Origin: Planctomycetota bacterium
Lineage (GTDB): Bacteria > Planctomycetota > Planctomycetia > Planctomycetales > Planctomycetaceae
Direction of reading: 5' to 3'
NCBI GenBank assembly: GCA_030836185.1
Contig: JAURQH010000041.1
Location: forward strand, 1-43,303
DNA: 43,303 nucleotides
A program made the position numbers and the translations under genes. Positions 4,374 to 22,313 of this stretch are shown piece after piece. Below the pieces are notes generated by a model that saw only the letters and a list, made by a program, of their open reading frames with translations, searched no databases and was not told the DNA's origin. Positions within the stretch are counted from its first letter, which is position 1. Each line of letters opens with the position of its first letter.

Positions 4374-7349
4374 CTAATCCACGAACACATATTCGTTCAG
4401 ATTGAGCATCAGGCGGCAGGTGTGCGTTCTGCCGTTCTCTTTGGCGTAAGCAACGAGTGCATTCAGTTCAGCATCAGTCGGTGGTCGGGAAAGAGCCAGC
4501 CAAAAGCCTCGTGTGATTTGATCGCGCAAGTCATCCGCTTCAGCTTTGAGTCGTTGAGCAAATTGTTCTGACATCGCTACCATAAATTTGTTGTTGAGCA
4601 GCGATAGAGCCTGGAGCGGGGTGATGGTTTGGTTCCGTTTGGGAACCTGCATCGAAGGGTCGGCACAATCAAGCGTCGTCATGAAGGGTTGTTGTTGCGA
4701 GCGTACAGCGAATCGATAGACAGAACGACGATGCGACTTCGGATCGAGAGGATCGTGCAAGTGATATTGATAGTGGGGCGAGTGTTGCGGCTTCTCGATC
4801 ACAAAGTCCTGAAAGCCGGGACCGTACATTTCCAAATTGAGTCTTCCACTCACTGCTAGCACGGCATCACGAATGGCTTCTGCGTCGAGACGTTGTCGCG
4901 AGAACTTCCAGTAATATTGATTCCCGGCATCAAGCTCGTGATTGGTGGAAACATCGACCGAAGATTGCCGATAGGTGGCACTGTTGCAGATCAGACGGTG
5001 CAGGTCTTTAATCGATTGACCGTTGTCTCGGAAGCGGCTGGCCAACCAGTCGAGTAATTCGGGATGCGTGGGTGACTGTCCCATACGACCAAAGTCATTG
5101 GGCGAGTCGACAATGCCGCGTCCAAAGTGATACAACCAGACACGATTCACAATCGACCGCCAGGTGAGAGGATGATCGTTATCGGCGATCCATTCAGCCA
5201 ATCGTTTGCGCCGTTCGCCTTCGGTCAGTTCGTCCCCCTCTTCAAACAAGCCGTTGACATGGTCGAATGCCTCGATGGCAGATGGCGACATCACATCGCC
5301 GGGTGTGGCAATGTTGCCGCGGTGTAGCAAGCGAATTTCGCGAGGAGTCCCGTCAGTTGGCTTGAAGTTTCCCTGCGGCTTAAATTTTGTCGCTGCTGCG
5401 TAGACAAGTTTTGGTTTGGGCATTTCGTTGATCTGAGTGCTGACTTGTTCCAAGTTAGCCAACAATTGAACGCGATGTGTCCATTGTTCGTCAGTCAGAG
5501 CAGAACGGGTCAGTTGTTGTTGACGACTCAGTAATTTCTTGTGCTGCTCAGTAGCATCGCCAGATTGTTTCTTGCCAACGTATAATCCATCGACCAAATT
5601 GGTTTTCTGCCAGCGAACGGGGGCTTCGATGGAATCAAGTGCGGTAACTGTCTTCCCCAACGCAAGATTGTTTCCAGCGGCATCAATCGCCTCTAACTCG
5701 GCGACTGCCAGAATGTAATCGTTCTTGCGTTCGGCGAGTTGAGTAGCCGTAAGCCGAATATAGCGAATTGTCTGTTGATTGGCGGCGAAGACCAGCGGAT
5801 CGGTGCCGGGATTGGGGACGTTTTCGGTTGTTCGGTCAGCGAGTAGAATCACCTCATTCGCGAAATCTGCGGTGAGGCATCCCTCCAGTTTGAATCGGAC
5901 CGGAAATCCGAAGCCGGCTCCGATGTTGGCGTAATTATCTTCACACCCTGCCAATAGAATTTTGTCGAGAGCGACCGGCTCCCCTAAATCGACTTGCACC
6001 CATTTGACGACATTCGACGTTTGGACAATCTGACTGTGATAGCCGTACTCCGGTTGACTGACACCGGCCGATGCCTGATCAGAAAGTGATTTCAATTGCT
6101 GTGCAACGACGGCAAGCTCTTTCCCTTTGTTCTTATTGATCACTTCGGCAAGTTGTTGTTTCTCTGCTTCCAAAGTTTCCTGTCGGGCGAGTAACTTTGT
6201 TCGTTGTTCCTGCAATTCGGGATCATCATAGTACCAGCGGTCAGCCCGATCAATGGCTGAAAAAACAGCCTGCAAACTGTAATAATCTTCCATCGAAAAC
6301 GGGTCGAATTTATGATCATGACAGCGAGCACAGCCGATGGTCACACTGTTGAATGTCTCCATCACTGTGCGAACCATATCGTCTCGGTCGAGATTACGGG
6401 CAATCTTACCGTCCAGTTTTGATTCGGGAACTTCCACATGGCTGATGTAATCCCACGGCCCCGATGCGAGAAGCCCAGTCGCAACAATTCCCTCGCCACC
6501 TGTTGACTCCATCACGTCGCCGGAAATCTGTTCCTTAACGAACTGGCCATACGGCTTGTCGTCATTGAAAGCGCGAATGACATAATCGCGGTAAGGCCAT
6601 GCGTTGGGCCGCAGTTTGTCTTTGTCGTAGCCGTGCGTGTCGCCGTAATGGACGACATCCAACCAATGCCGGGCCCAGCGTTCGCCGTACTGGGATGAAT
6701 CGAGATATCGATCCACCAGTTTCTCGTAAGCCTGCGGATCCGTATCTCTAATGAACTGTTCGACTTCCTCAGGAGTGGGTGGTAAGCCTATGAGATCATA
6801 TTTCAGACGACGAATCAGTGTTCGTCGGTCCGCTTGCGGAGACGGCGTTAAGCCGCGCTCGTTCAGTTTTGAGAGAACAAATGCATCAATGGGGTTCCGA
6901 ACTCGGTCGCGGTTAGTCTGTTCGAGCTCTGGTACTTTGGGAGACTTCAGTGGACGGAGTGACCACCAAGTTGCCTCAGCCGGATCCAATACGACTTGTT
7001 TGGGCCACGGGAGTTCCTGTTTCACCCATTCGGTGAGCAACGCGACTTCTTCGACGGTCAGCTTGTCGCCTGTTTTCGGCATCTTCGGCTTGTCGCCCGA
7101 AACATAATCGATAATCAGACTCAAGTCAGGATCACCCGGCGTGACGGTCAAACCACTTTCACCACCAGCGACAAGGGATTCGCGAGTCGTGAGATCAAGT
7201 CCTCCCTTTTTCTGTGTCGGGTTATGACACGCGAGGCATTTCTCGGTGAGGAGAGGAGCAATCTGCTTTTGAAAATCAATGGGTGCTGCGGCGCACCACG
7301 ACCCCAAAATCAATGACCAGAAGAATGTCACATAAACGAGGTGCTTCAT
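4374..7349 (-). CDS. PSCyt1 / DUF1549 / DUF1553 planctomycete cytochrome-type protein
   Basis: A typical large planctomycete exported protein. After a signal peptide (MKHLVYVTFFWSLILGSW) comes a PSCyt1 domain with one haem c motif, CLACH (Cys 38, Cys 41 and His 42 from this start), then DUF1549 (WWSLRPL, RNPIDAFVL, GERWARHWLDVVHYGDT, GCARCHDHKFDP) and C-terminal DUF1553 (NRVWLYHFGRGIV, PTHPELLDWLA, NEYVFVD). Between them, around residues 440-590, lies a discoidin-like beta-rich insert (WVQVDLGEPVALDKILL, QTIRYIRLTATQLAE). The biochemical role of the family is unknown; it is thought to act at the cell surface in polymer use. ATG 7349 is preferred over the GTG at 7376 because it starts the signal peptide. 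The DUF1501 gene that often follows in planctomycetes is absent. Confidence 0.9.
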   Translation of the reverse strand: MKHLVYVTFFWSLILGSWCAAAPIDFQKQIAPLLTEKCLACHNPTQKKGGLDLTTRESLVAGGESGLTVTPGDPDLSLIIDYVSGDKPKMPKTGDKLTVEEVALLTEWVKQELPWPKQVVLDPAEATWWSLRPLKSPKVPELEQTNRDRVRNPIDAFVLSKLNERGLTPSPQADRRTLIRRLKYDLIGLPPTPEEVEQFIRDTDPQAYEKLVDRYLDSSQYGERWARHWLDVVHYGDTHGYDKDKLRPNAWPYRDYVIRAFNDDKPYGQFVKEQISGDVMESTGGEGIVATGLLASGPWDYISHVEVPESKLDGKIARNLDRDDMVRTVMETFNSVTIGCARCHDHKFDPFSMEDYYSLQAVFSAIDRADRWYYDDPELQEQRTKLLARQETLEAEKQQLAEVINKNKGKELAVVAQQLKSLSDQASAGVSQPEYGYHSQIVQTSNVVKWVQVDLGEPVALDKILLAGCEDNYANIGAGFGFPVRFKLEGCLTADFANEVILLADRTTENVPNPGTDPLVFAANQQTIRYIRLTATQLAERKNDYILAVAELEAIDAAGNNLALGKTVTALDSIEAPVRWQKTNLVDGLYVGKKQSGDATEQHKKLLSRQQQLTRSALTDEQWTHRVQLLANLEQVSTQINEMPKPKLVYAAATKFKPQGNFKPTDGTPREIRLLHRGNIATPGDVMSPSAIEAFDHVNGLFEEGDELTEGERRKRLAEWIADNDHPLTWRSIVNRVWLYHFGRGIVDSPNDFGRMGQSPTHPELLDWLASRFRDNGQSIKDLHRLICNSATYRQSSVDVSTNHELDAGNQYYWKFSRQRLDAEAIRDAVLAVSGRLNLEMYGPGFQDFVIEKPQHSPHYQYHLHDPLDPKSHRRSVYRFAVRSQQQPFMTTLDCADPSMQVPKRNQTITPLQALSLLNNKFMVAMSEQFAQRLKAEADDLRDQITRGFWLALSRPPTDAELNALVAYAKENGRTHTCRLMLNLNEYVFVD

Positions 7350-7423
7350 GGAGTTCGCCAACGGTTTCTGAATCACAATTCGGATGGTTCCAGTTTACCG
7401 CAAGCGAGAGGAAGTATCGATGT

Positions 7424-10122: not shown

Positions 10123-10797
10123 TTACGCTGCGTCGCCGATATCGTCCGAGACATAGTATTCAAAGAAATGACGTCCGATTTCATAAGACAATCGGTACAG
10201 GTATTCTTTCTTGAACTGTTCCAGCGAAGTATCTTGCGATGACCGTGGGATTCTCAAAGGAAATGTTGTCGTGTTCTCTTTGGAATAAATCTTTTCTCCT
10301 TCTCCGCTATCGGCCATTTCCCAGACATTGATTTCGCACTGAGTGGTTCCGCGATAGAGCGTATGAGAGTTCTTCTCGTACAGCGAGTAATCCAGAATAT
10401 CGATGTGAATCACGTAGGTGACTTCGAAGAATTCACCGATCTCTGCGGGAGTTGTCCAGTCCGGGTTTTTATCAAGCCAGGCTCGAACCTGATCAGGATA
10501 AATGACATTGATTTTTTTCTGTCCCATTTGGATTGTGACGGCTTCTGCCACGAGATTGTCGATTTCGTCGTAGCTCCACTTCAAATCTTTGGGTGCCGTA
10601 CAGACCACAGCCACGGTGACACCGAAGTCTTTCATGTCTTTGCCGGTTTGTGCGGCAAAGTCAGGCTCGATACTCGGAGGTCCGCCAATCAGATAGCCGA
10701 GAAATATCCCGTACTCGCAGCCTGTCAGCATAATGCACGGCATGATGACCAGAAACAACTGGCAGAATTTCTGAGCGATTTGATTTTTGCGGGACAT
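10123..10797 (-). CDS. Lipoprotein, second member of a paralogous pair
   Basis: A 224-residue protein with a lipobox MLTGC (Cys 27), so probably anchored in the envelope. Function unknown. It is clearly related to the upstream gene (10860-11537): both share a beta strand plus helix (VAVVCTAPKDLKWSYDEIDN here), a segment ending WLDKNPDW, the strand-rich core TYVIHIDILDYSLYE and an 'RGTTQCEINVWEM' strand, then a C-terminal helix. The layout, with a conserved tail that predicts similar folds, suggests the two came from a gene duplication and may form a hetero-oligomer. Both genes face the same way with a 62-base gap. Confidence 0.7.
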   Translation of the reverse strand: MSRKNQIAQKFCQLFLVIMPCIMLTGCEYGIFLGYLIGGPPSIEPDFAAQTGKDMKDFGVTVAVVCTAPKDLKWSYDEIDNLVAEAVTIQMGQKKINVIYPDQVRAWLDKNPDWTTPAEIGEFFEVTYVIHIDILDYSLYEKNSHTLYRGTTQCEINVWEMADSGEGEKIYSKENTTTFPLRIPRSSQDTSLEQFKKEYLYRLSYEIGRHFFEYYVSDDIGDAA

Positions 10798-10859: not shown

Positions 10860-11537
10860 TTAGTAAATTTCTTCACTCGAATGGTGATCGTACAACTGAT
10901 GGGCCAAGGCGAGGGAAACATGCTCCATCAACTTGCGATGAAATTCTTCACGCGACATACGATCTGCTAATTGAGGGTAACCATCCGGGTATTTACGTTC
11001 GAAGGAATGATTGAAAATTCGATGAGCGACTTTCGAGTTTCCCGATTGATGAACTTCATAGCCGTAAACGGTACCCGAAACTCGACCTTCAAACATGTCC
11101 GGGCTCCCCGGTTGTTTCAGCCGAATACTGTCGATTTCGAGGTGAATGATAAAATCGGTCTCAAAGGCGTTGGCCAATTCGTCCACTTCGTCCCAGTATC
11201 CGCCATTGTCGTCGAGCCAAGTCGCAATTTTGTTGTAGTTGACGACGTTCACCCCTTCAGACTTTAGCTTGCGCGAAACTTTTTCGATCAAATTGACCGT
11301 CGCTGCGGGGAATTCGACTTTAATGGTTTCAGGAGTCGATGCCACAATGACCACGCGATGTTGACCAGTCCGCAAATCGACATTTGAAGCACGCGAAAAG
11401 GGCGAGTTCACAACCGGATCACCCAATATTGACTTGCCAGCCATCACGAATAGCGAACAACCTCCAGCGGTCGCCAGTATCAGGCAAGCAGTCAGCCAAC
11501 AGGTGAGTCGAGTGAGTTGTTTGGTATTCACGGGCAT
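10860..11537 (-). CDS. Lipoprotein, first member of a paralogous pair
   Basis: A 225-residue lipoprotein with lipobox ATAGGC (Cys 27, the same position as in its paralogue). ATG 11537 is chosen because GAGG lies about 8 bases upstream; a GTG at 11558 would add seven residues. Core segments HRVVIVASTPETIKVEFPA, KIATWLDDNGGYWDEVDELA and TDFIIHLEIDSIRLKQ align by eye with those of the next gene. The family is unknown to me. A DUF2752 membrane protein lies 77 bases upstream on the same strand. Confidence 0.7.
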   Translation of the reverse strand: MPVNTKQLTRLTCWLTACLILATAGGCSLFVMAGKSILGDPVVNSPFSRASNVDLRTGQHRVVIVASTPETIKVEFPAATVNLIEKVSRKLKSEGVNVVNYNKIATWLDDNGGYWDEVDELANAFETDFIIHLEIDSIRLKQPGSPDMFEGRVSGTVYGYEVHQSGNSKVAHRIFNHSFERKYPDGYPQLADRMSREEFHRKLMEHVSLALAHQLYDHHSSEEIY

Positions 11538-11614
11538 AGTCCGACCTCGATCTGTCACGATGAGGTGATTGTTTGGTTATTTATTTGGGAATGTTTGAAT
11601 TGAGACAGGACATC

Positions 11615-12266: not shown

Positions 12267-13445
12267 TCATCTGACATTGAATGATTTACAAAACTGGTAG
12301 TAGATTTCTGCCGCTTGTTGAAGTTGTCGAATCTCAATCCATTCATCTTTGGTATGGGCTTGGGCAATATTTCCGGGACCAAACACAACAGACGGAATTC
12401 CGACTCTCGCCGTGCGCGAGGCGTGAGTGCCGAAGGCCACTCCAATCGTCTCATGCGGACCGGCAACCTCATCAATCGATTTCAACAACGAAGTTGCCAA
12501 CGCTTCATTTTCGTCATCAGGTAGAGGCGCGCTGATCAGCCAGGGTTGGTGATGGATGACTTCAAACGGCAACGATTGAAGTTCATCAATGACGGCTTGT
12601 TGGGCCTCTTGTGCTGTTTCTCCGGGAATCAAACGTCGGTCAACTTCAATCCAGCATTCCTCAGGCACGATGTTGACACTGGCGCCTCCTCCAATCCGTC
12701 CCACACTGAGAGTCGATGGTCCGCATTTCGGGTGAGCCGGTTTTTGAGTCGGTAGCGATTCGGCATATTTTTCAATTCGATTCAATACCTGCCCCATTCG
12801 ATAAATCGCATTCTCTCCCAACTCGGGAGTCGAGGAATGACAGGCGGTCCCGGAGGCCTCAATCTTCCAACGGACTACGCCGCGATGAGTGACAATAATA
12901 TCGAGTTCGGTGGGCTCGGCGATGACGGCAGCAACTGGTTTTGGACATGGGAGGTCTCCGGTACTCAACCAATTCGTCAACGCGTTGATTCCCATGGTGG
13001 TGGCTTCTTCATCAATTGTACACGACAGCATCACTGAGGGAGCGTCGGGAGGAGCCTTTTGAACAATGCGTGCGAAGGCCGACATCATCGCGGCAAGGCC
13101 TCCTTTGACATCGCAGGCTCCTCGACCAAACATTTTCGCATCTTGGACAACCGGCTTGAACGGTTCGATGGTCATGCCGGCAACGGGGACTGTATCCTGA
13201 TGCGCATCCAGCAAGATGACTTCTGAGTTTGGCTGATGAGGGTTTTCCCACAACAGGACCACATTCGACCGTCCCTCTTCAATCTCCTGGATGATCGGTT
13301 CGATACCCAGTTGTCGGCTCCAATTGATCAGAAACTCGGTCACGCGCGTCTCAAAACAGATCTCGGGGTCGGCTTCCCCTCCCATTGGATTGACCGAAGG
13401 TAGAGCAATGAGTGTTTTTAACAATTCGACGGGTTCACTGAGCAT
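12267..13445 (-). CDS. M20-family metallopeptidase / ArgE-DapE-like deacylase
   Basis: A zinc-dependent amidohydrolase of the M20 family, cytoplasmic by its lack of a signal peptide. The expected metal and catalytic residues are visible: His 82 and Asp 84 in AHQDTVP, Asp 112 in GRGACDVKGG, the catalytic pair in IDEEATT (Glu 146, Glu 147), Glu 177 in AEPTE, and His 364 in AQAHTKDEWI. A dimerisation-domain stretch is present (HSSTPELGENAIYRM). Its 392 residues fit acetylornithine deacetylase or succinyl-diaminopimelate desuccinylase; the exact substrate cannot be told from sequence. It is divergent from the membrane-protein operon, with about 170 bases between the starts holding both promoters. 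Confidence 0.88.
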   Translation of the reverse strand: MLSEPVELLKTLIALPSVNPMGGEADPEICFETRVTEFLINWSRQLGIEPIIQEIEEGRSNVVLLWENPHQPNSEVILLDAHQDTVPVAGMTIEPFKPVVQDAKMFGRGACDVKGGLAAMMSAFARIVQKAPPDAPSVMLSCTIDEEATTMGINALTNWLSTGDLPCPKPVAAVIAEPTELDIIVTHRGVVRWKIEASGTACHSSTPELGENAIYRMGQVLNRIEKYAESLPTQKPAHPKCGPSTLSVGRIGGGASVNIVPEECWIEVDRRLIPGETAQEAQQAVIDELQSLPFEVIHHQPWLISAPLPDDENEALATSLLKSIDEVAGPHETIGVAFGTHASRTARVGIPSVVFGPGNIAQAHTKDEWIEIRQLQQAAEIYYQFCKSFNVR

Positions 13446-13615: not shown

Positions 13616-15274
13616 ATGGATGCAATTACCGGCTGGTTTCTGATCCTGATCATCTTGAGTTCGATTGCGCAGTCGGTCGCGATTCTGATCGACAATGAGA
13701 GATTCTTCAAGTTCAGTTTTCTCGCAGTCTCGACCATCCTGGCGTTCCTCTCTCTGATGGTATTCCAGAAAGCGGTGATCTGGAACGGCCCGACAATATT
13801 TGGACTCGATTCCTTCCATCAAGTGCGTTGCCATTTCAGAGTCTCTCTTTGGCAACTCCCACTGCTTTGGATGACATGGTGGTGGATGTCAGACAGAAAG
13901 CGAGATGAACGAGCCTCAGAGAGATTCTGGTTTCTCGCAGTGCTGATGATCTTCCTGCTTTGTGATGACGTCTGGCTTTGGATGATCACACTGATTGGTT
14001 GTTCCTGTCTTCAACAATCTTTACTCGCGTCAAAAAGTCAATTCCAGAAAGGGTTGTCACTTTTACGCGGTTGTCATTGGATGGCAATTTTACTTTTGCT
14101 CGTTGTTGTCGGCATACTCTCTTTCGACTTTGGCATTGCTTCGTATCACGAACTTCCCGAGACGATTCAAAACTGGGATAACTTCACGTCCGCTCAACAA
14201 GCCGACCTGGTTCTTGCGGCAATGTTGGGTTCACTCTCGCTGATCTTAATGACTGCGGTATATCCGATCTCAGTCTTGCGAATTGATTGTGAACCTGAAA
14301 ATGATCTCGAACCTATCAGCTTGATTTTTGCTGCTGCCGTGTTCATCAAACTGATTCCGTTGTTTGTCCTCACAAACGTCACCGCAATTCACTCAACGCT
14401 AATTCTGTTGACCGTTGTTGTCTCGATGGTTTGCAGTTGGGGGCTTGTTGAGAAAAAAACAGTTCGCCAGACAGTGCTGACGGCTTTTCTCATGCTGGGA
14501 CTGTTTGGCATGTTTCTGTCGAGCAATCCGGTCTTGAATACACTTGGGCTCGAACAATTTCTGCTGACGGTCATCATGTGGCGACTGTGGAACAGTTATG
14601 ACGAGAGAACTCTCTCTCATCGAGCGGCCATATTGTTTTCAGGGTTGTGGATCATGGTGGGAATGTCTGGCTGGACTCTTGCTATCCAATCCTCGGAGCT
14701 TTTGGGGAACAACGAACATATGACAAAGGTTGTTCTGGGAGTCATCTCTGTCGGCTTGATGGTTCCATTTTTTCGTGAAATATTGGCTGACTGGAAGACG
14801 TTACCCGCAGGCATCCATCCCGCTGGACAGAGGAAATCGTCTGGCTTAATGATCATCCCGATTGCTTTCGTGATTGCAGTCATGCGCTATTGGCTATGGA
14901 AACAAGGGGAGCCATGGCTGATCGTGCCGGGTTGGGAAACAATTGTTGGAATCATTGTGGGAGCCGGCATTGCCGGTATTCTCGCACGCCGTACGAGTTC
15001 GGAAGGTGTCTCTCGCCAACGTACGGGGAGCTTTCAACGCTTGGCGGAATCGCATTTTCATGGCCTTACCATCTGGAAAGGCATTGCGAGTATTCCGACG
15101 GGAGTTGTGACTGCATGTGCCAGTCTCCTTGATCTTTGGGGAAGTCGCGTCGAGCGACGATTCATTCACAAAGAAAATCCGTTGCAGTCCCCCGCGCCCT
15201 TTGTCTGGGAACTTGCCTTAGGCGGAATTGGTTTTCTGTTACTTGCCAGTCTGTTTCTCTGGATGAAAGGGTAA
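13616..15274 (+). CDS. Divergent NuoL-like membrane protein
   Basis: The product is 552 residues, almost all hydrophobic, with many membrane helices. It reads as a highly diverged relative of the antiporter-like NuoL subunit of complex I. The segment FRVSLWQLPLLWM then SERFWFLAVLMIFLLCDDVW matches the NuoL 'FRVDQLS...' to 'FF.YLNLF....LV.ADN' stretch. YPISVLRIDCEPENDLEPIS matches 'VPLHVWLPDAMEGPTPVS'. A C-terminal helix with a lateral tail (about 478-517) is in the right place for the NuoL end. The proton-channel Glu ('GWEG') is replaced by Leu 125 and the 'GKSAQVP' Lys by Met 212 in my alignment. The ATG is the first possible start after an in-frame stop. It leads a three-gene operon and overlaps none of its neighbours. 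Confidence 0.6.
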   Translation: MDAITGWFLILIILSSIAQSVAILIDNERFFKFSFLAVSTILAFLSLMVFQKAVIWNGPTIFGLDSFHQVRCHFRVSLWQLPLLWMTWWWMSDRKRDERASERFWFLAVLMIFLLCDDVWLWMITLIGCSCLQQSLLASKSQFQKGLSLLRGCHWMAILLLLVVVGILSFDFGIASYHELPETIQNWDNFTSAQQADLVLAAMLGSLSLILMTAVYPISVLRIDCEPENDLEPISLIFAAAVFIKLIPLFVLTNVTAIHSTLILLTVVVSMVCSWGLVEKKTVRQTVLTAFLMLGLFGMFLSSNPVLNTLGLEQFLLTVIMWRLWNSYDERTLSHRAAILFSGLWIMVGMSGWTLAIQSSELLGNNEHMTKVVLGVISVGLMVPFFREILADWKTLPAGIHPAGQRKSSGLMIIPIAFVIAVMRYWLWKQGEPWLIVPGWETIVGIIVGAGIAGILARRTSSEGVSRQRTGSFQRLAESHFHGLTIWKGIASIPTGVVTACASLLDLWGSRVERRFIHKENPLQSPAPFVWELALGGIGFLLLASLFLWMKG

Positions 15275-15281
15275 TCCAGAG

Positions 15282-16916
15282 ATGAACGCGTTCACGTCAA
15301 TCCTCAATCAGATGCCGATGCTCTTAATCTGTGTTCCTCTGTGTGGCTTGTTCAGTTTGGGAATGTCACGCTGGTGGGGTGAGCGATTCATTCAGCGTAC
15401 GTTGCTGCTCAACGGTGCGTTGTCGATGTTGTGTACGTTGTTGATGGTCACAAATTTTTCGCACGACCCACAGCGCACACGATTAAATGCTGCAGAGAGT
15501 TTTCAATCGATCAATGTGCTTGTTCTTCAGCAAAGCGAAACTTCAGGTTACCGATTTGGTGTCGATGGTTGTTCGTTCCTTCTGATTGTCTGCGCGGCGG
15601 CGTTACCATTTTTAATCGGGTTAGAAAAGTATATTTTGAGTGACCAGCAACCACTCGCGACTCGACCTGTATCGCCCCCCACCTCTCTCAGCCGAGCAAT
15701 GGGATTGTTGGTGTTTCAATTGCTGATGTATTGTTTCCTGCTCACGATCGATCGTCGTGTGCAAATGGTGACACTCTTGTTCATTCCCCTTTCGGTACAT
15801 TTTCTGTTAGCGACATTGGTGTCACCACAACATCGCCAAGGTCTAAGCCGACGAATGAGGCAACTGTTATTAAGTGATTTTTTGATTGTGGCCGGAATCC
15901 TCAGCACATTGACACCATTAATGCGATACACGGCTCTGGAGAATGACCCTGCGGAACTTTTTGACATCCCGCGCATTCTGGCAGCCATTGAGCTCGCAAA
16001 ATTTGAAGATTTGACCGGGCACGACCGTTTGATGCGTTCTATCTCACCGGCTTTGAGCGTCATGATCGTCGGCTGCGTGATGCGTTTTGGATCATTTCCG
16101 TTCACAAAAGATAGTCGCAAGATGTGGAGCGACACGGCCCCCATCACTCGTCTGATATTTTGGTGTTACGGGCCGGTACTCGGGACGGCCGTGATTTTGA
16201 GAGAGTGTCAGTTATTTCCGTTTGTTGCCTATCGGATGTTTTCAATACTCTCTTATGCCTGGTGTGTCGGTCTCCTCTGGCTGGCAATCACATCGCGAAT
16301 TCGATCAGACAAACCGGATGATTCTCAAAGTTTTCTATTTCTCTCGACCATGTTGATCCTGACTCTCGGCGGTTCTAACAAAACCTCAATCGCCGCAGCG
16401 ATGTTGTTGTTGATGACGATTGGTTTGAAATCCGCTATTCCTCAGCAGACGAAAAGTTCTCGCTTCTCGTCCGTCTGGCTCTGTCAGTGGACGGCTTCTG
16501 TCTTTCTGGTTTCGGGATTGATCCTGGGACTTGTGGGGACATGGCAGTCCACGGGGCCGGGTTCGCGCGAAGTGGGAGCGGCATTGATCGTGGGTATCGC
16601 GATCCTCTTGATGAAAAGTCAGCATAAGGTCTGCGATGATCGGGGCAGAAACTCAGTATCCTCTCATCGATTGCTGGCACAAAATTTCGTTCGCGTTCCC
16701 AGACGAAATCACGAATTGCCTGTTTGGGAAATTGGCGAACACCCAACCACACTCGAACCTCAAAGTGGCTTTCTGAAAACAAGCGTAGTTCTGGTCGTTG
16801 CCGTTTTAATCCTGTTGATACCACAAGTGATCTGGACTCACATTCGTTGGGATCTGCAAAAGCTCGAATTCCCGGTTTCCGCAGGTGGGTTTTCGTTGGA
16901 GGAGAAACAGCAATGA
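15282..16916 (+). CDS. Divergent NuoM-like membrane protein
   Basis: A 544-residue polytopic membrane protein that reads as a diverged NuoM. YRFGVDGCSFLL (90-101) corresponds to the NuoM signature 'Y.LGVDGIS..L'. TIDRRVQMVTLLFIPLSVHF corresponds to 'ALDLLLFY.FWE.MLIP.YF', placing Thr 164 where NuoM has its proton-channel Glu. VMRFGSFPFTKDSRKMW corresponds to 'VK.PLFPFHTWLPDAH', with Arg 268 in place of the Lys. The last 110 residues contain a charged soluble segment and a final helix, longer than usual for NuoM. Start ATG 15282 follows the previous stop by 7 bases, and the stop overlaps the next start as ATGA, so the three genes are translationally coupled. Confidence 0.6.
   Translation: MNAFTSILNQMPMLLICVPLCGLFSLGMSRWWGERFIQRTLLLNGALSMLCTLLMVTNFSHDPQRTRLNAAESFQSINVLVLQQSETSGYRFGVDGCSFLLIVCAAALPFLIGLEKYILSDQQPLATRPVSPPTSLSRAMGLLVFQLLMYCFLLTIDRRVQMVTLLFIPLSVHFLLATLVSPQHRQGLSRRMRQLLLSDFLIVAGILSTLTPLMRYTALENDPAELFDIPRILAAIELAKFEDLTGHDRLMRSISPALSVMIVGCVMRFGSFPFTKDSRKMWSDTAPITRLIFWCYGPVLGTAVILRECQLFPFVAYRMFSILSYAWCVGLLWLAITSRIRSDKPDDSQSFLFLSTMLILTLGGSNKTSIAAAMLLLMTIGLKSAIPQQTKSSRFSSVWLCQWTASVFLVSGLILGLVGTWQSTGPGSREVGAALIVGIAILLMKSQHKVCDDRGRNSVSSHRLLAQNFVRVPRRNHELPVWEIGEHPTTLEPQSGFLKTSVVLVVAVLILLIPQVIWTHIRWDLQKLEFPVSAGGFSLEEKQQ
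16898..16904 (+). promoter_or_regulatory. Strong ribosome binding site GGAGGAG fixing the third gene's start
   Basis: GGAGGAG lies inside the end of the NuoM-like gene, 8 bases before ATG 16913. It decides the start of the NuoN-like gene, which could otherwise be read from 16724 in the same frame with 63 extra, soluble residues. Confidence 0.8.
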
Positions 16917-18328
16917 TTTCTTCTCTTCCTGTTTTGTTGATCATGCTGGTTCCATTTTTCGCCGGGATTGCCTGTTGGGGAATCGTTCGAAAACCACGAT
17001 CCTCGGAAATCGCTCGGCCTCTCACACAAACTTCATTGGCGTTTGCGATGGGAACATGGTGGCTGCACGCCGATCAACTTCTCTCTGAGGCCACAGGCTC
17101 CTTCGCACTCTCCCTAATCCCCTGGATTTTGGCGTTTCATCTCCTGCTAACACTTCTCATGGTCAAACAAGATGAGGGTGCTTTGACTCTTCATCCGACG
17201 GCCTTGTTGCTTTCGGCTTCGTTTTTGTGCGGTATATGTTTCTCGACAGATCTCAGATTTCTTTTTCTGTTTGGAGAAGCCATTTCCGTCACGACATGGT
17301 TGACTCTGCCCGCAGCTCAGCATCGTTCGGCAATATTACGCTCGATTGTAACTTTTGGAATGCTCGCCGCGGGGATCTTGTTAGTTTCTTCTGAAATGAA
17401 AACCTGTCAATTCGACACCTGGAGACCGTTGTCTGAGTTAAACACCGATCAAAGTGAAGCGGCTTTTTACGCCCAACCTTCCTCAAGTGCCGGAACGGCT
17501 CTGAGTGTCGGTGTGTTGTGTCTCATTTTTGGATCCGCATGGAGAATTGGCTTCTTTCCCTTTCAATTGCCGTTCTCGGATGAAAAGTCATGGGACGAGA
17601 TCCAACGATTGACGGGACTGATTTCGTCGAGCGTTTTGCTACTTGCCATCGTGCTTCCCGACATTCCCGGCATGGAATCCATCGGGCAAATGCTGCTCGC
17701 AACATTTGCCATTCCGACATTGATTCGTGAAACGCTAAAATCAGGATGGGTGGACAACATGACTTTCCGATTACGCGGCTGGTTTCTCGCTTCCGCCGCG
17801 TTGATGTGGTTGGCAATTGGCCAGGAACTGTTTTTGATCTCTCACTCCGTGGCGTTAGGTTTATGGCTTCCATCGGGACGTGAGTTATTTCGGATCGAGT
17901 TCATCAGCAGTATTTTCTCCTTCATTGTGCTGATGGGAGTTCTGCATGAGTTGACTCGATTAGGAAAACCATGTTTACAAAAAGAAGACTTGTCGGGATT
18001 TCTGTGGAGTCACCCACTTCCTGCACTTGTGATTTTGGTCTCGATGTTCAGTTGGGTCGGAGTTCCCGGACTAATGGGATTCGAATCGCGCCTGGGGCTG
18101 ATTGCGGGCGCATTTGAAATTGCCGGAGCGGGAGTGGAATCGGCGGCCGGATATTCGCTCATGGGAGTGATCATCGTCAGTAGCGAAATCGTACTCTTCT
18201 TTCTCGCACTCATGATGTTGCAGACATTGTGTGACGCAACTGCCTCTCATCGCTCACAATCAAAACGGGTCTCTTGGCGTCTCTGTGTTCTGGCAATTCT
18301 TATCGTGGCCTTGAGAGCTTTCAAATAA
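16913..18328 (+). CDS. Divergent NuoN-like membrane protein
   Basis: A 471-residue polytopic membrane protein, the best preserved of the three complex I-like subunits. STDLRFLFLFGEAISVTTWL matches the NuoN/NuoM 'A.DLL.LFL.LE.LSLP.Y' helix and keeps its key Glu (Glu 122). SAWRIGFFPFQLP matches 'AFK.AA.PFH.W', with Arg 211 for Lys. LSGFLWSHPLPALVILVSM then FSWVGVPGLMGFESRLGL matches 'L.GL....P..A...A...LSLAGIPP..GF..K', with Arg 393 near the Lys position. The start overlaps the upstream stop by 4 bases (ATGA). The gene order L-M-N is that of the end of normal nuo operons. The role is unknown; proton or cation translocation is possible only in part. Confidence 0.65.
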   Translation: MISSLPVLLIMLVPFFAGIACWGIVRKPRSSEIARPLTQTSLAFAMGTWWLHADQLLSEATGSFALSLIPWILAFHLLLTLLMVKQDEGALTLHPTALLLSASFLCGICFSTDLRFLFLFGEAISVTTWLTLPAAQHRSAILRSIVTFGMLAAGILLVSSEMKTCQFDTWRPLSELNTDQSEAAFYAQPSSSAGTALSVGVLCLIFGSAWRIGFFPFQLPFSDEKSWDEIQRLTGLISSSVLLLAIVLPDIPGMESIGQMLLATFAIPTLIRETLKSGWVDNMTFRLRGWFLASAALMWLAIGQELFLISHSVALGLWLPSGRELFRIEFISSIFSFIVLMGVLHELTRLGKPCLQKEDLSGFLWSHPLPALVILVSMFSWVGVPGLMGFESRLGLIAGAFEIAGAGVESAAGYSLMGVIIVSSEIVLFFLALMMLQTLCDATASHRSQSKRVSWRLCVLAILIVALRAFK

Positions 18329-18556: not shown

Positions 18557-19966
18557 CTATTTCAGCAATAGTATCCCAGATTGAGGTTTGCCAATTTCTG
18601 CTTTGCGAGCGATGAGGTCTGCTTCATCCAAAGCAAAGCTGGGTTGAATTTCGACTGTCACGTCGTCACCGACTTCAATTCCCGCTGCGGATAGCCACGA
18701 ACGCCAGATAGTATCAAGTGCGGACTGGCACGTTGCCGGAGAATCATTTCCCTCCGCATTTTTGACGGGATTAAATTCTCGCTCTCGGGAGGTTTCCACG
18801 ACAAGCGCAACGTCGGCTGCTGGCAGCGCGTCGAAAATAAATTTTTCAAATTTGAACGCATTCGAAGACTCAGGGGATTGTGACACACCCGCATCGTCAA
18901 TGTATGGCACTTTCTTGGAAGCTTTATGAAAAGGCAGTGCAGTGGCCGAAGCCGCCAATGATTTTAAGAACTGAAAGGAGAACGCATGGCATGCGGTGTT
19001 ACCCGCCCAGAACTTCAGGCTGCCGTCGATCGCTTTTTGTGCCGCCAGCTCAGGCGGGAAATCAGAGTATTCAATGATTTGTGTTTTGCCGTCGATATCG
19101 ACGAGCAGTCCCATTTTTTCTTCGGGGGCCACTTTGCGCACAACCTTTGTGGACATCTCTGAATCCATCTGGCGATGTAATCCGAGAAATTCAGGATCGC
19201 ACATTTTCAAACACGGATTGTCTACTTGATGGTAATAGACCACTTCCAAACCGCGCGCTTCCATGTCGCGGAGCACGCCTTGTTTGTCGAGTGCAGACAC
19301 CATGCCACCATGACCGTCCGGGCTGAGTGCGAGCGAGTCTTTCGCAGACAATAGCAACTTTCCACTAGCCGCATCAACTGCCGGCATGTGTCCCTGCTTG
19401 AAGAACATTACCTGATTCGGGCTCAAGCCAAACCAATCATGTTCTTGAAATGCTGCAGTGACCTCATCGTGAGTCGCGTCGCTCGTCATGATGTAATAGG
19501 GAATATCAACCTGATAACGCTTCGTCAATGCGGCAATTTGTCCGCACAAAAAATCGAACAAAGTCGCATTAGAAATCGGCCCTATGGGAAAAAGTCCCTT
19601 GGCGTGTTCGAATCCCAACCGACTTCCCTGTCCACCCGCGACGACAATCGCGCCGACTTTCCCGTTTCTGAGCAGTGTTTCTCCACGCTCGTGAAGATCG
19701 GCCTTGTTGGGATCTGACCAAATGGGGTCACTCAAACCGACGAGAGTTTCGGGAGGAGTCGCTTTCTTTGCGTGTTCCGATTGTTCAGCCGCATTATCGG
19801 CTTCGATATCATTGAGCAGACGATCAAGTTCATTCCAGTTGATTGATTCCAACTGATCAAAAAGCGAGACTCGCTGCGATTCATCGAGTTCGTCCCACCA
19901 TTGAATTAGATGGGTTTGGCTACGAGATTGGAGTGTGGTTTTCAATTCGTCGAGAATTTTCATCAT
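18557..19966 (-). CDS. UDP-N-acetylglucosamine pyrophosphorylase, eukaryotic (UAP1) type
   Basis: A nucleotidyltransferase of the UDPGP/UAP1 family that makes UDP-sugars, most likely UDP-N-acetylglucosamine from UTP and the sugar 1-phosphate. The nucleotide loop VVAGGQGSRLGFEHAKGLFP (GGQGSRLG at about 111-118; Lys 123 corresponds to the family 'PKG' Lys) and GHGGMVSALDKQGVL, YHQVDNPCLKMCDPEFLG, STKVVRKVAPEEKMG and IIEYSDFPPE are family landmarks. The length of 469 residues is close to eukaryotic UAP1 (about 500). ATG 19966 is preferred because AGG lies just upstream and the first real helix begins there; an upstream start at 20002 would add 12 residues. UDP-glucose pyrophosphorylase is the alternative specificity. 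Confidence 0.85.
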   Translation of the reverse strand: MMKILDELKTTLQSRSQTHLIQWWDELDESQRVSLFDQLESINWNELDRLLNDIEADNAAEQSEHAKKATPPETLVGLSDPIWSDPNKADLHERGETLLRNGKVGAIVVAGGQGSRLGFEHAKGLFPIGPISNATLFDFLCGQIAALTKRYQVDIPYYIMTSDATHDEVTAAFQEHDWFGLSPNQVMFFKQGHMPAVDAASGKLLLSAKDSLALSPDGHGGMVSALDKQGVLRDMEARGLEVVYYHQVDNPCLKMCDPEFLGLHRQMDSEMSTKVVRKVAPEEKMGLLVDIDGKTQIIEYSDFPPELAAQKAIDGSLKFWAGNTACHAFSFQFLKSLAASATALPFHKASKKVPYIDDAGVSQSPESSNAFKFEKFIFDALPAADVALVVETSREREFNPVKNAEGNDSPATCQSALDTIWRSWLSAAGIEVGDDVTVEIQPSFALDEADLIARKAEIGKPQSGILLLK

Positions 19967-20005
19967 CTTGAACCTACTACTTGATCTATTTTGAATAGTC
20001 ACTTA

Positions 20006-20447: not shown

Positions 20448-22313
20448 TTACGGACGAGGTGGTGCCGTCAATTGGAGTTCTACGGTTGGAGGATCGGCGG
20501 GAGTCTGTTCTTCGTGAGCGAGGACCGAATCGACCAGGAAGTAAAGCAATTGTCGCAGGTCTTCGTTATCGACCTCATCTGCTAATGCTTCTGCTCGTGC
20601 CTGTGATTTGTCGACGAGAGATTCCGCCGTCTCAAAGGCGCCCAGTTCGGTGTACAGTTTTTTGAGTTCCTGCAAACGATCAATGGCAGGTCGCTCTGAT
20701 TCAAACAGTTCTTTCAACTGAGATTTCTGCTCGTCATTGGCTTCCTGCATGGCAATGGCAAGGAGCACGGTCGGGCGGAACGACAAAGCGTCCTGGCCGG
20801 CGACCAGTTTGTTGTTCTCGTCTCCCTGCCAGTCTTTCAAATCGTTGAGAATCTGAAAGCCGACCCCGATATGACGACAGAATGAGGAAATCATCTCCTC
20901 ATACGGTTTCACATCACCCGCCATTCGAATGCCAGAGTACAACGCGGCTTCAAAGGCTGGAGATGTTTTTAACGCATAAATTTGCAGCGCATCGATGGGT
21001 TTAAGATTCCAGTCGCGAGATTCACTCCACGACATTTCCGCTCCCTGTCCTTCACACAGTTTGATATGCGCGGCTGACATTTGTTGAAGGACATCGGCGG
21101 TCACTTCGGCCCCTAAACTTCCGACGGCGGAAGCGATCAGTTTATAACCTATCCCAATCAGGTAGTCACCAATGTTAATGGCTTGCCCGGTTCCATGTTT
21201 ACGATGCAATGTTTCGCGACCGTAGCGATACAAGTCACTGTCCTGAATGTCATCGTGAACCAACGAGGCTTTATGAAACGCTTCAATCGCCATAGCAATC
21301 CGGCAGACATCCGCGTCAAACTGATAAGCGGTCGTGCGATCTCCCGTTTCGTCGCGTGCGTGGTTAGCAGCGGTGGCTCCCGTGAGAGCGTCGTAAGCCG
21401 CGAGTGTGATAAATGGTCGGAAGCGTTTCCCACCTTTAGCCAACCAGTCATACGCGACTTCTTCTGTAAACGCGATAGGCGTTGCGGGAGCCTGATCTTT
21501 TCCACTACGAACGGCTGGCAACAGTTCTTCGAGGCGTTTTTCGAACATTTCATTCGAAGCTCGCATGATGGGAAGATAGCTGGAGGTTTGTTGCTCGGGG
21601 AGCGGTTCGTATTTCTCGATGACATCCCAGATCCACGATTCATCGAGTGAGGTGTTTTTGCAATCGCCAGAGTGTAATGGAACGGCGTAAGACGGAACAC
21701 CGGCAATCAGAACTTTATCAATCGCTTTTTCCAATACGTTCAAGCAAGCGACACCCAAAATCCCTTCCACATATCCTGAAACGATAATTTTCAGAACGAC
21801 CGGCGATCCTTCGGCGACGAGAACTTTGTAACCGAGTTGCTCCGCGCGAACTTTATAGTCGGCAATCGAACAAGCACCACATGATTCGCAATCGAGACCA
21901 AATTGGTCATATTCGGCAGGACAACCTTCCGCATGTTTCAGACAATGCGGCAACAGCAGCATTCGTTTTTCAAACGGGATTGCCAAAAATTGTCGCTTCC
22001 AGAAAAAATTGCCGATCAGCACCATTACAAAGCCGAGAAATTTCTCGGGCAAATCCATCTGCTTGAGCAGCTTTCGACCGTGTTGTTCGAGTTCTCCCTT
22101 ATTGAAAGGTCGGGTTTTGTCCAGTGGCTCGGCGTATTTCTCGGAGGCATCTCGGATCTGCTCACGCTGCGCGAGAGTTTCGGGCACCGCTTTGAGATGA
22201 CTGGTACTACGGCGTTTTTTCTTCCGTTTCACGGGACGTTCGATATCACCACTCTCAACATCGGTGGAGTGCTGCGAATCTGTCTCGGAGGAATTCAGGG
22301 GGGCGATCGACAC
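20448..22313 (-). CDS. DUF116 - polyprenyl synthase fusion protein
   Basis: A two-domain protein of 621 residues. After a basic, low-complexity N-terminus (1-70), the DUF116 domain covers about 75-220 with many cysteines (PHC 124, Cys 131, and CESCGAC at 142-148), typical of a metal- or cluster-binding region, plus [20 protein letters not shown]. The second half, 255-600, is an isoprenyl diphosphate synthase: GGKRFRPF (294-301), the first aspartate motif DDIQD (354-358) and the second NDLKD (490-494, usually DDxxD). It should condense allylic diphosphates with IPP into a chain of unknown length. GTG 22313 is backed by GAGAGG 5 bases upstream. It lies next to a squalene-cyclase-like gene. Confidence 0.88.

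Follow-up and report, generated by a model that had tools for sequence, protein, structure and literature searches.

NuoL-, NuoM- and NuoN-type subunits are usually read as a sign that protons or cations are translocated. The locus considered here, in a window of 43,303 nucleotides (the whole stretch of planctomycete DNA analysed), encodes three such proteins in L-M-N order and raises the questions of where they come from, whether they could still pump, and what kind of membrane assembly they might form.

Organization of the locus

The three genes lie between two genes of the opposite strand, as follows:

12267–13445, minus strand: M20-family peptidase, flanking and divergently transcribed (Pfam, synteny)
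13616–15274, plus strand: gene 1, NuoL-like protein of 552 aa (ORF list and profile comparison)
15282–16916, plus strand: gene 2, NuoM-like protein of 544 aa (ORF list and profile comparison)
16898–16904, plus strand: ribosome-binding site GGAGGAG of gene 3 (read directly)
16913–16916, plus strand: ATGA overlap of the gene 2 stop and the gene 3 start
16913–18328, plus strand: gene 3, NuoN-like protein of 471 aa from the ATG (ORF list and profile comparison)
18557–20002, minus strand: UDPGP-family nucleotidyltransferase, flanking (Pfam, synteny)

The tightly coupled L-M-N operon of the original prediction was found in each of its elements, namely a 7-base gap between genes 1 and 2, the ATGA overlap, and the ribosome-binding site; its signature stretches are also present, GVDGCSFLL in protein 2 and SWVGVPGLMGF in protein 3. 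In the mechanical ORF list, gene 3 begins further upstream, at a TTG (16724); the overlapping ATG at 16913 is the likely start. Each protein has 12–14 hydrophobic segments, compared with 11–18 in ordinary NuoL, NuoM and NuoN rows. Synteny holds for both flanks in the relative G001 and for the nucleotidyltransferase in G002, whose contig ends just upstream, short of the peptidase gene; neither flanking gene is regarded as belonging to the module. Given these shared flanks and the intact frames in three genomes, an assembly chimera was rejected.

Homology to NuoL, NuoM and NuoN

Comparison by hhalign against NuoL, NuoM and NuoN profiles made from relatives' genomes matched protein 1 to NuoL (96.3%), protein 2 to NuoM (98.4%) and protein 3 to NuoN (98.0%), against ≤6.0% for reversed-sequence controls. 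At the level of sequence profiles, these matches establish the trio as homologues of the corresponding complex I subunits, in the order predicted. The alignments span residues 76–509 of protein 1, including a stretch like the NuoL C-terminal region, and residues 3–342 of protein 2 (to 375–379 with other profiles), the remainder of which is unaligned. Identity in the L and M alignments is ~14–15%, as low as had been anticipated, and protein 1 is the most diverged of the three.

Hmmscan gave no above-cut-off Pfam match for any of the three proteins, and none reached the curated NCBIfam cut-offs for NuoL, NuoM or NuoN; the only relevant NCBIfam match was that of protein 3 to NuoN (TIGR01770, E 1.8e-7, far under cut-off). 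Genome searches with PF00361, PF00346 and PF00420 matched this contig in gene 3 only, where a 51-codon stretch alone scored 22.8 against the PF00361 cut-off of 21.5. When PDB sequences were searched by profile, protein 3 matched a NuoN at E 2.2e-5 and an unrelated enzyme at E 0.5, and proteins 1 and 2 matched nothing. AlphaFold models from alignments A1 and A2 (three rows each) reached mean pLDDT values of 45.4 and 39.1 and therefore carry no structural claim. Of the check originally proposed, by profiles and AlphaFold, the profile half gave the expected high scores and the AlphaFold half low-confidence models. In Foldseek searches with these low-confidence models, protein 1 matched E. coli NuoL best (E 5.6e-4) and protein 2 matched chain M of a plant complex I best (E 0.03). 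Both results are consistent with complex I homology, at TM-scores of about 0.2–0.3 for the complex I matches.

A probable clade of diverged modules in the family

The trio probably belongs to a clade of diverged NuoJ/K/L/M/N-type modules of the Planctomycetaceae, labelled deg here, with which it groups in the trees (M tree 100/100; N tree 97/95; L tree 100 SH-aLRT); the N and M trees were built carefully, and the L tree is a quick one. Of 170 family genomes, at least 43 carry an L-like member of this clade; counted by genus, the clade is present in no fewer than 12 of 58. The modules have no adjoining redox arm and keep differing subsets of subunits: J-K-L-M-N, J-K-L-M, K-L-M, J-L (K doubtful), L-M-N, or L alone. 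A protein of ~335 aa encoded upstream in the modules of genus g56 (c6) found no support as a NuoH (4.7%; E. coli NuoH against c6, 0.8%). Branches leading to the trio are very long: the full trees give 2.7–4.3 changes per site, and those without the deg rows 6.6–7.9. Of all clade members, the trio has probably changed most.

Several of the first deg loci were chosen by a weak M-like match to the trio's M profile, and one (L143) by protein 1, so some of the resemblance of those proteins to the trio comes from the way they were picked. L138 has a 919-aa frame, NuoN-like over 441–916, which stood in the deg M profile of early comparisons and was excluded from the M trees, the residue mapping and the final hhalign runs. 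L136 was excluded from the L and M trees, the x_L038 row (wrong frame) was dropped, and the NuoN-like frame of L037 is absent from the N set.

Proton-path residues

Residues were mapped to the E. coli K-12 numbering of NuoL, NuoM and NuoN. Protein 1 has no counterpart of NuoL Glu144, Asp178, Lys229, His254, Lys342, Lys399 or Asp400, and the Lys229 position reads M, L and M in the three genus members. In protein 2, Arg occupies the position of NuoM Lys234, the equivalents of Glu144, Lys265 and Glu407 are gone (V at K265), and H322 falls in a gap. Protein 3 retains NuoN Glu133 and carries Arg at Lys217, Lys247 and Lys395 in 3/3 genus members. The residue set of a working pump (Glu in TM5; Lys/Glu in TM7, TM8 and TM12) is therefore not complete in the trio, the L protein having none of it, the M protein only the Lys234-to-Arg substitution and the N protein only its Glu. 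Proton exchange is not expected of Arg, and the axes of NuoL and NuoM are broken, so the trio would be unable to pump protons by the known mechanism.

Outside the genus, 40 deg-clade genomes were counted, and all 39 of them that were examined have Arg at NuoL K229 and lack E144 (in one case as a gap). The NuoN K395 position is Arg in 9 of 10 deg rows outside the genus (Q in x_L028) and in 3/3 trio rows, versus Lys in all 18 nuo1 and nuo2 rows, nuo1 being the genome's own complex I and nuo2 the family's second complex I type. The trio thus carries the NuoN part of a shared Lys-to-Arg signature and not its NuoL part. These changes may partly follow a general drop in the K/R ratio. The clade is not uniformly dead, since NuoM K265 is retained in 15 of 16 deg rows (and both dx rows), and K234 and E407 in 6 of 16 each.

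The charged Glu/Arg axis kept in the NuoN-like protein makes an altered ion path possible, in which Arg in place of Lys would conduct or bind another ion, such as an anion, instead of protons. This fits the retained Glu133 beside three Arg positions, and also an acidic residue at NuoL position 178, next to Arg229, in 21 of 26 rows of relatives. However, the trio's own NuoL-like protein has neither member of the 178/229 pair, its NuoM-like axis is broken at K265 and H322, and no transporter partner was found among the ten neighbours scanned; we consider such a conduit unlikely.

Ancestry and the genome's own complex I

As for the complete nuo operon that might exist elsewhere, the search covered subunits A, D, H and J–N and found them all on other contigs, A and D on C19 and H and J–N on C7. 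The trio could in principle supply this complex with an alternative distal arm, or help in its assembly as a partner, swapped for or attached to the standard L, M and N subunits. With PF00420, only the nuo1 NuoK scored above cut-off in 3/3 genus genomes, so such a partner would have to share J, K and H. A sub-cut-off candidate for a second NuoK (G000:C62, 18.4 bits) has CRISPR-repeat-like and Cas2-like frames nearby by our own reading, and the match was therefore taken as chance.

The trees bear on this directly. Without deg rows, the trio moves to the nuo1 side of the M tree (88/59, unstarred), and grouping with nuo1 is not rejected for N at 0.05 (p-AU 0.058); nor is it rejected in the full M tree (p 0.092). 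By contrast, once deg rows are included, a grouping of the trio with the nuo1 subunits of its own genus is rejected (N p 0.008; M p 0.020), and in the hhalign comparison each of the three proteins matches deg and nuo2 better than nuo1. Ancestry of the trio and deg modules on the nuo2 side is likely. Moreover, PMC9802314 reports that the Paracoccus NuoM-homologue variants E141Q, K232Q, K263Q and E405Q do not catalyze NADH:UQ oxidoreduction; judged from the numbering offset, these residues would correspond to E. coli E144, K234, K265 and E407. A NuoM-type subunit without them would be expected to block catalysis, and partnership with nuo1 appears distinctly unlikely.

Selection within the genus

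The three frames are unbroken, with no internal stops, in 3/3 genus genomes. Their dN/dS values are 0.25 (L), 0.17 (M) and 0.16 (N), ~4–6 times those of the genome's own NuoL, NuoM and NuoN (0.03–0.05), yet well under 1, and L, M and N of relatives give 0.20–0.27. The trio is thus under relaxed purifying selection, in keeping with the earlier suggestion of a paralogue under different selection. A slowly decaying, functionless relic would account for the raised dN/dS, for the 34–45% identity to G001 compared with 75–79% for the immediate flanks, and for an in-frame TAG in the NuoL-like gene of the relative G021, a sign of possible decay in at least one relative. However, the intact frames and the dN/dS of only 0.16–0.25 mean that the trio is not a plain pseudogene, and related modules persist across genera; a "relic" in the sense of decay is improbable.

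Gene neighborhood and comparison with known systems

A Pfam scan of ten neighbours of the trio (two without any Pfam match), plus the gene at 4374–7376 in the window, revealed among the ten no peripheral complex I subunit, NuoH, NuoJ, NuoK or DabA, as predicted, and no Mrp gene set (MrpA to MrpG). The trio had also been proposed as an antiporter-like module serving another membrane complex, which fits poorly with pumping residues that are mostly gone and with the lack of any specific partner found. Recurrence with a constant neighbour was borne out only in its first part: diverged modules do recur, but the adjoining genes (PfkB, NPCBM, GNAT, GATase, cyclophilin, PSD/PSCyt) vary by genus. Within ~10 kb, DUF1501, PSD1/PSCyt, PPC-domain, DUF1552, GFO/IDH oxidoreductase, cyclophilin and sulfatase genes occur in more than one genus. 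Counted over 488 kb of 29 deg loci versus 404 kb of 31 other loci, with profiles seeded from deg loci (a bias) and several deg loci near copies of one another, DUF1501 genes number 8 versus 3, PSD1/PSCyt genes 7 versus 3, and PPC-type genes 6 versus 0. We treat these recurring families as probable common background.

Compared with the family's nuo2 subunits, the trio shares subunit-by-subunit homology, gene order, operon coupling and the number of hydrophobic segments, but has no peripheral or H/J/K genes adjoining and has mostly lost its proton-path residues or exchanged Lys for Arg. An additional NuoM likewise gives some complex I variants an altered set of antiporter-like subunits, adding pumping capacity inside a complete complex, whereas the trio's pumping residues are gone and no redox arm adjoins it. 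Mrp antiporters (MrpA, MrpD) share the PF00361 superfamily fold and operate without a redox arm; the trio, however, maps to L, M and N and lacks the key residues. DAB complexes (DabA with a NuoL-like DabB) place a complex I-type membrane subunit outside complex I, and such uses of the fold, of DAB and Mrp type, are known (PMC13144422, PMC7419157). That the trio is a working transporter of either type with its partner encoded elsewhere is nevertheless very improbable: no MrpA-, MrpC- or DabA-like gene lies among the ten neighbours scanned, three of the genome's four PF00361 loci are NuoL, NuoM and NuoN, and DabB2 retains the NuoL proton-channel residues for proton transfer (PMC13144422), which the trio has lost.

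Interpretation

On balance, we favour the view that the trio comprises diverged L/M/N paralogues within the deg clade, forming a membrane module without redox function in which the known pumping mechanism does not operate; this is probably the best reading. Specifically, deg modules of J/K/L/M/N type would have split off from the family's nuo2 complex I, and the trio proteins would still assemble side by side like L-M-N subunits. Without pumping, they would most likely act as a scaffold or a regulatory assembly in the membrane, serving a membrane process encoded away from the locus. More tentatively, the family may hold a whole clade of complex I membrane arms freed from redox chemistry, in which pumping was lost with the shared Lys-to-Arg signature and the arms were kept, in varying subunit subsets, as a new membrane machine, the trio being the most changed. 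In searches of an open-access library, which lacks most subscription papers, no paper was found whose title or abstract describes such a clade.

A maintained clade with its pumping residues lost or changed would mean that this fold can be retained for another purpose, and the deg modules would supply natural variants with which to test the residue needs of pumping. It would also be a reason not to count such genes in metagenomes as complex I or antiporters.

Homology of the trio to complex I subunits

Three tightly coupled genes encode the proteins studied here (the trio):

13616-15274, + strand, protein 1, NuoL-like, 552 aa
15282-16916, + strand, protein 2, NuoM-like, 544 aa
16913-18328, + strand, protein 3, NuoN-like, 471 aa

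The 7-base gap, ATGA overlap and ribosome binding site (GGAGGAG, ahead of gene 3) described in the original prediction are all present. Promoter-like (3 versus 4.5 in shuffled sequence) and terminator-like sites (9 versus 6.2) are near shuffled numbers, and Rfam at gathering scores gave no match anywhere in the window. None of the three proteins exceeded the Pfam cut-off, and in NCBIfam the sole relevant match in the trio was that of protein 3 to NuoN, which was weak.

Profiles were built from relatives' complex I operons and, in our naming, represent nuo1 (the type on contig C7 of the same genome), nuo2 (a second type, taken from family- and class-level relatives) and deg, a diverged group identified here, of which d34, d31 and dx are lower-scoring members. 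Using hhalign, protein 1 matched the deg, nuo2 and nuo1 NuoL profiles at 96.3%, 0.7% and 0.2%, protein 2 the NuoM profiles at 98.4%, 92.0% and 10.9%, and protein 3 the NuoN profiles at 98.0%, 97.4% and 34.8%, respectively; reversed-profile controls reached at most 6.0%. Proteins 1 and 2 scored ≤8% with non-matching subunits in this main comparison, and in a second comparison protein 1 scored 17.5% with a combined NuoM profile versus 86.5% with NuoL. Protein 3 also matched NuoM (deg 95.1%, nuo2 87.8%) and NuoL (deg 87.9%), as expected because these subunits form one superfamily. The proposed NuoL/M/N identity is thus borne out by profile comparison, and Foldseek searches with poor predicted models agree in kind. 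As to whether a complete nuo operon exists elsewhere in the genome, contig C7 carries ordinary NuoL, M and N with NuoH, J and K, and contig C19 carries NuoA and NuoD; a complete set is likely.

Distribution and ancestry

The trio occurs in 3/3 genomes of the genus, with 80-85% identity to G002 and 34-45% to G001; both flanks are kept in G001, and the downstream one in G002, where the contig ends just upstream. With proteins 1 and 2 as queries, the trio was absent from the other 56 of 59 relatives. Protein 3 gave 12 weak matches in 11 of those 56, comprising seven in L-M-N operons (loci L029-L034 and L036), two single NuoN-like genes (L028, L035) and three others (L013, L037, L038). Taking the best three candidates per genome, a protein 1 profile matched 13/397 class genomes at E ≤0.1, the genus's three included, the strongest match beyond the genus (23.1 bits) being a deg NuoL. 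The lone NuoN-like protein of L028 (6943-8529), with Gln at the Lys395 position, adjoins a 1409-aa frame and groups with deg in the NuoN tree.

The trio and deg (with dx) form a single clade in the M (100/100), N (97/95, with the L028 protein) and L (100, quick tree) phylogenies, within which the trio pairs with genus g56 for L (98, quick tree) and weakly for M (86/74). In the M tree this clade is nested within nuo2; in the N tree it neighbours the family's nuo2, and in the L tree it neighbours nuo2. Topologies uniting the trio with nuo1 subunits of the genus itself were rejected (p 0.008 for N and 0.020 for M), and grouping with all nuo1 gave p 0.037 for N and p 0.092 for M. When deg rows were left out, the trio fell on the nuo1 side of the M tree (88/59) and on the nuo2 side of the N tree (94/99; trio with nuo1, p 0.058). 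The closeness of some M and L deg rows is partly selected, because L132 and L136-L142 were picked via a weak match to the trio's M profile and L143 via protein 1; later-fetched loci were picked mainly by the deg NuoL profile. We consider it probable that the trio shares deg/nuo2 ancestry.

A wider clade of diverged modules

A profile of the first eight diverged NuoL proteins identified 31/170 family genomes at our cut of ≥314 bits (best seven candidates per genome), the next rows (≤308 bits) including ordinary nuo2 NuoL. Thirty loci from these 31 genomes were examined, all 30 carrying the residue signature, and 16/31 were placed in the tree. Nine more loci (L189-L191, L193-L198) fall inside the deg clade of the NuoL tree, such that, counting the three genus members, the clade spans at least 43/170 genomes and at least 12/58 genera (best seven candidates per genome). 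Outside the family, the top score in a 397-genome class sample was 244 bits, comparable to the scores of ordinary nuo2 NuoL; members scoring as low as those of g31 and g34 (~145-190 bits) would be missed there because the best three candidates per genome at E ≤1e-60 were considered.

Gene content of diverged modules (locus, genome or genus: genes)
L132, L142: J-K-L-M-N
g56: J-L-M, K recognised in 4/6 loci
g72: J-K-L-M in L139; L-M-N in the other 5/6 loci
G036, G021: L-M-N
G011: K-L-M
g34: J-L and a doubtful K (31%)
g31 (4 loci): L alone
G015: L and M, at a contig end
G013: L and an N-like protein

Apart from the g34 K, the J and K assignments scored 57-97% in hhalign, and the NuoL-like frame of the G021 module contains one TAG. 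The constant neighbour sought for the module did not emerge as a specific partner; nearby recurring families are ones common in these genomes.

Several features of these neighbourhoods were recorded separately. About 6 kb ahead of the trio, positions 4374-7376 of the window encode a PSD1/PSCyt protein that has a planctomycete cytochrome c domain. Modules of g72, g31 and G001 also have DUF1501 and PSD1/PSCyt genes nearby, and a further PSD-type protein is close to two g34 modules, a recurrence that is possibly only background. The 621-aa protein at 20448-22313 combines DUF116 and polyprenyl synthetase domains; at 98% identity to its G002 counterpart, it ranks first in conservation among the four neighbours compared, and squalene-hopene-cyclase-like and 4Fe-4S protein genes adjoin it. 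Adjacent paralogues at 10123-10797 and 10860-11558 (~20% mutual identity, no Pfam match) are kept as a pair in G001. In g56 (L143, L180-L184), two conserved, unassigned proteins, c5 (~147 aa) and c6 (~335 aa), precede the module operons at 6/6 loci. The last half of a 919-aa frame (L138:2547-5306) is NuoN-like, its first 440 residues matching no NuoM/NuoN profile used. An additional type of complex I, with the genes H-I-J-K-L-M-N, is present in L192 (G190); each of the three quick trees places it outside nuo2.

Proton-path residues and selection

Residues were mapped onto E. coli K-12 NuoL/M/N. NuoL Lys229 is Arg in 39/39 non-genus clade genomes examined (alignments of 26 and 30 rows, with 17 genomes in common) versus Lys in 16/16 ordinary rows; Glu144 is absent from every clade row (one a gap) and present in 16/16 ordinary rows, and the Asp178 position is acidic in 21/26 clade rows outside the genus. 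The NuoN Lys395 position holds Arg in 8/8 deg, 1/1 dx and 3/3 trio rows and Gln in the L028 protein, versus Lys in all 18 rows of nuo1 and nuo2. In the trio (G000, the window's genome/G002/G001), NuoL has M/V/L at 144, I/I/V at 178, M/L/M at 229, L at 342, W at 399 and T/A/A at 400. NuoM carries Arg at the Lys234 position and lacks a charged residue at 144, 265 and 407; single positions in trio NuoL and the C-terminal part of NuoM are uncertain because alignment is weak there. Trio NuoN retains Glu133 and has Arg at 217, 247 and 395, the first uninformative alone because Lys217 is already Arg in 6/11 nuo2 rows. Among deg NuoM rows, Lys265 is retained in 15/16, Lys234 and Glu407 each in 6/16, and Glu144 in 1/16; these retained residues count against uniform loss across the clade.

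Between G000 and G002, dN/dS is 0.25, 0.17 and 0.16 for proteins 1, 2 and 3, versus 0.049, 0.040 and 0.026 for the genome's own NuoL, M and N and 0.016-0.132 for four neighbours. Values against G001 were set aside because synonymous sites are near saturation. Related modules gave 0.20-0.27 for L, M and N, and 0.18-0.33 over all module rows, with one flank at 0.033. Judged by these ratios, constraint on the trio and related modules is relaxed yet present.

Functional interpretation

Full-text searches of an open-access library brought up no paper describing such modules by title or abstract, and a word search found 'planctomycet' absent from the main text of a 2025 survey of prokaryotic complex I (PMC12361115). 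Earlier work gives these Glu/Lys residues a role in proton transfer (PMC9271201), and variants at four such positions in the Paracoccus NuoM homologue are reported to be unable to catalyse NADH:UQ oxidoreduction (PMC9802314). In E. coli, altering E133 of NuoN reportedly had less effect than altering E144 of NuoL and NuoM (PMC3046159). From these residue assignments and variants, we infer that the trio would be unable to pump as NuoL/M/N do. The best overall explanation, a diverged non-redox membrane module that would not pump by the known mechanism, seems somewhat better than evenly probable, our confidence being trimmed slightly because deg rows were partly selected, L028 has Gln and G021 has a TAG. 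The trio may act as a scaffold, a regulator or an altered conduit; we favour a non-pumping membrane assembly.
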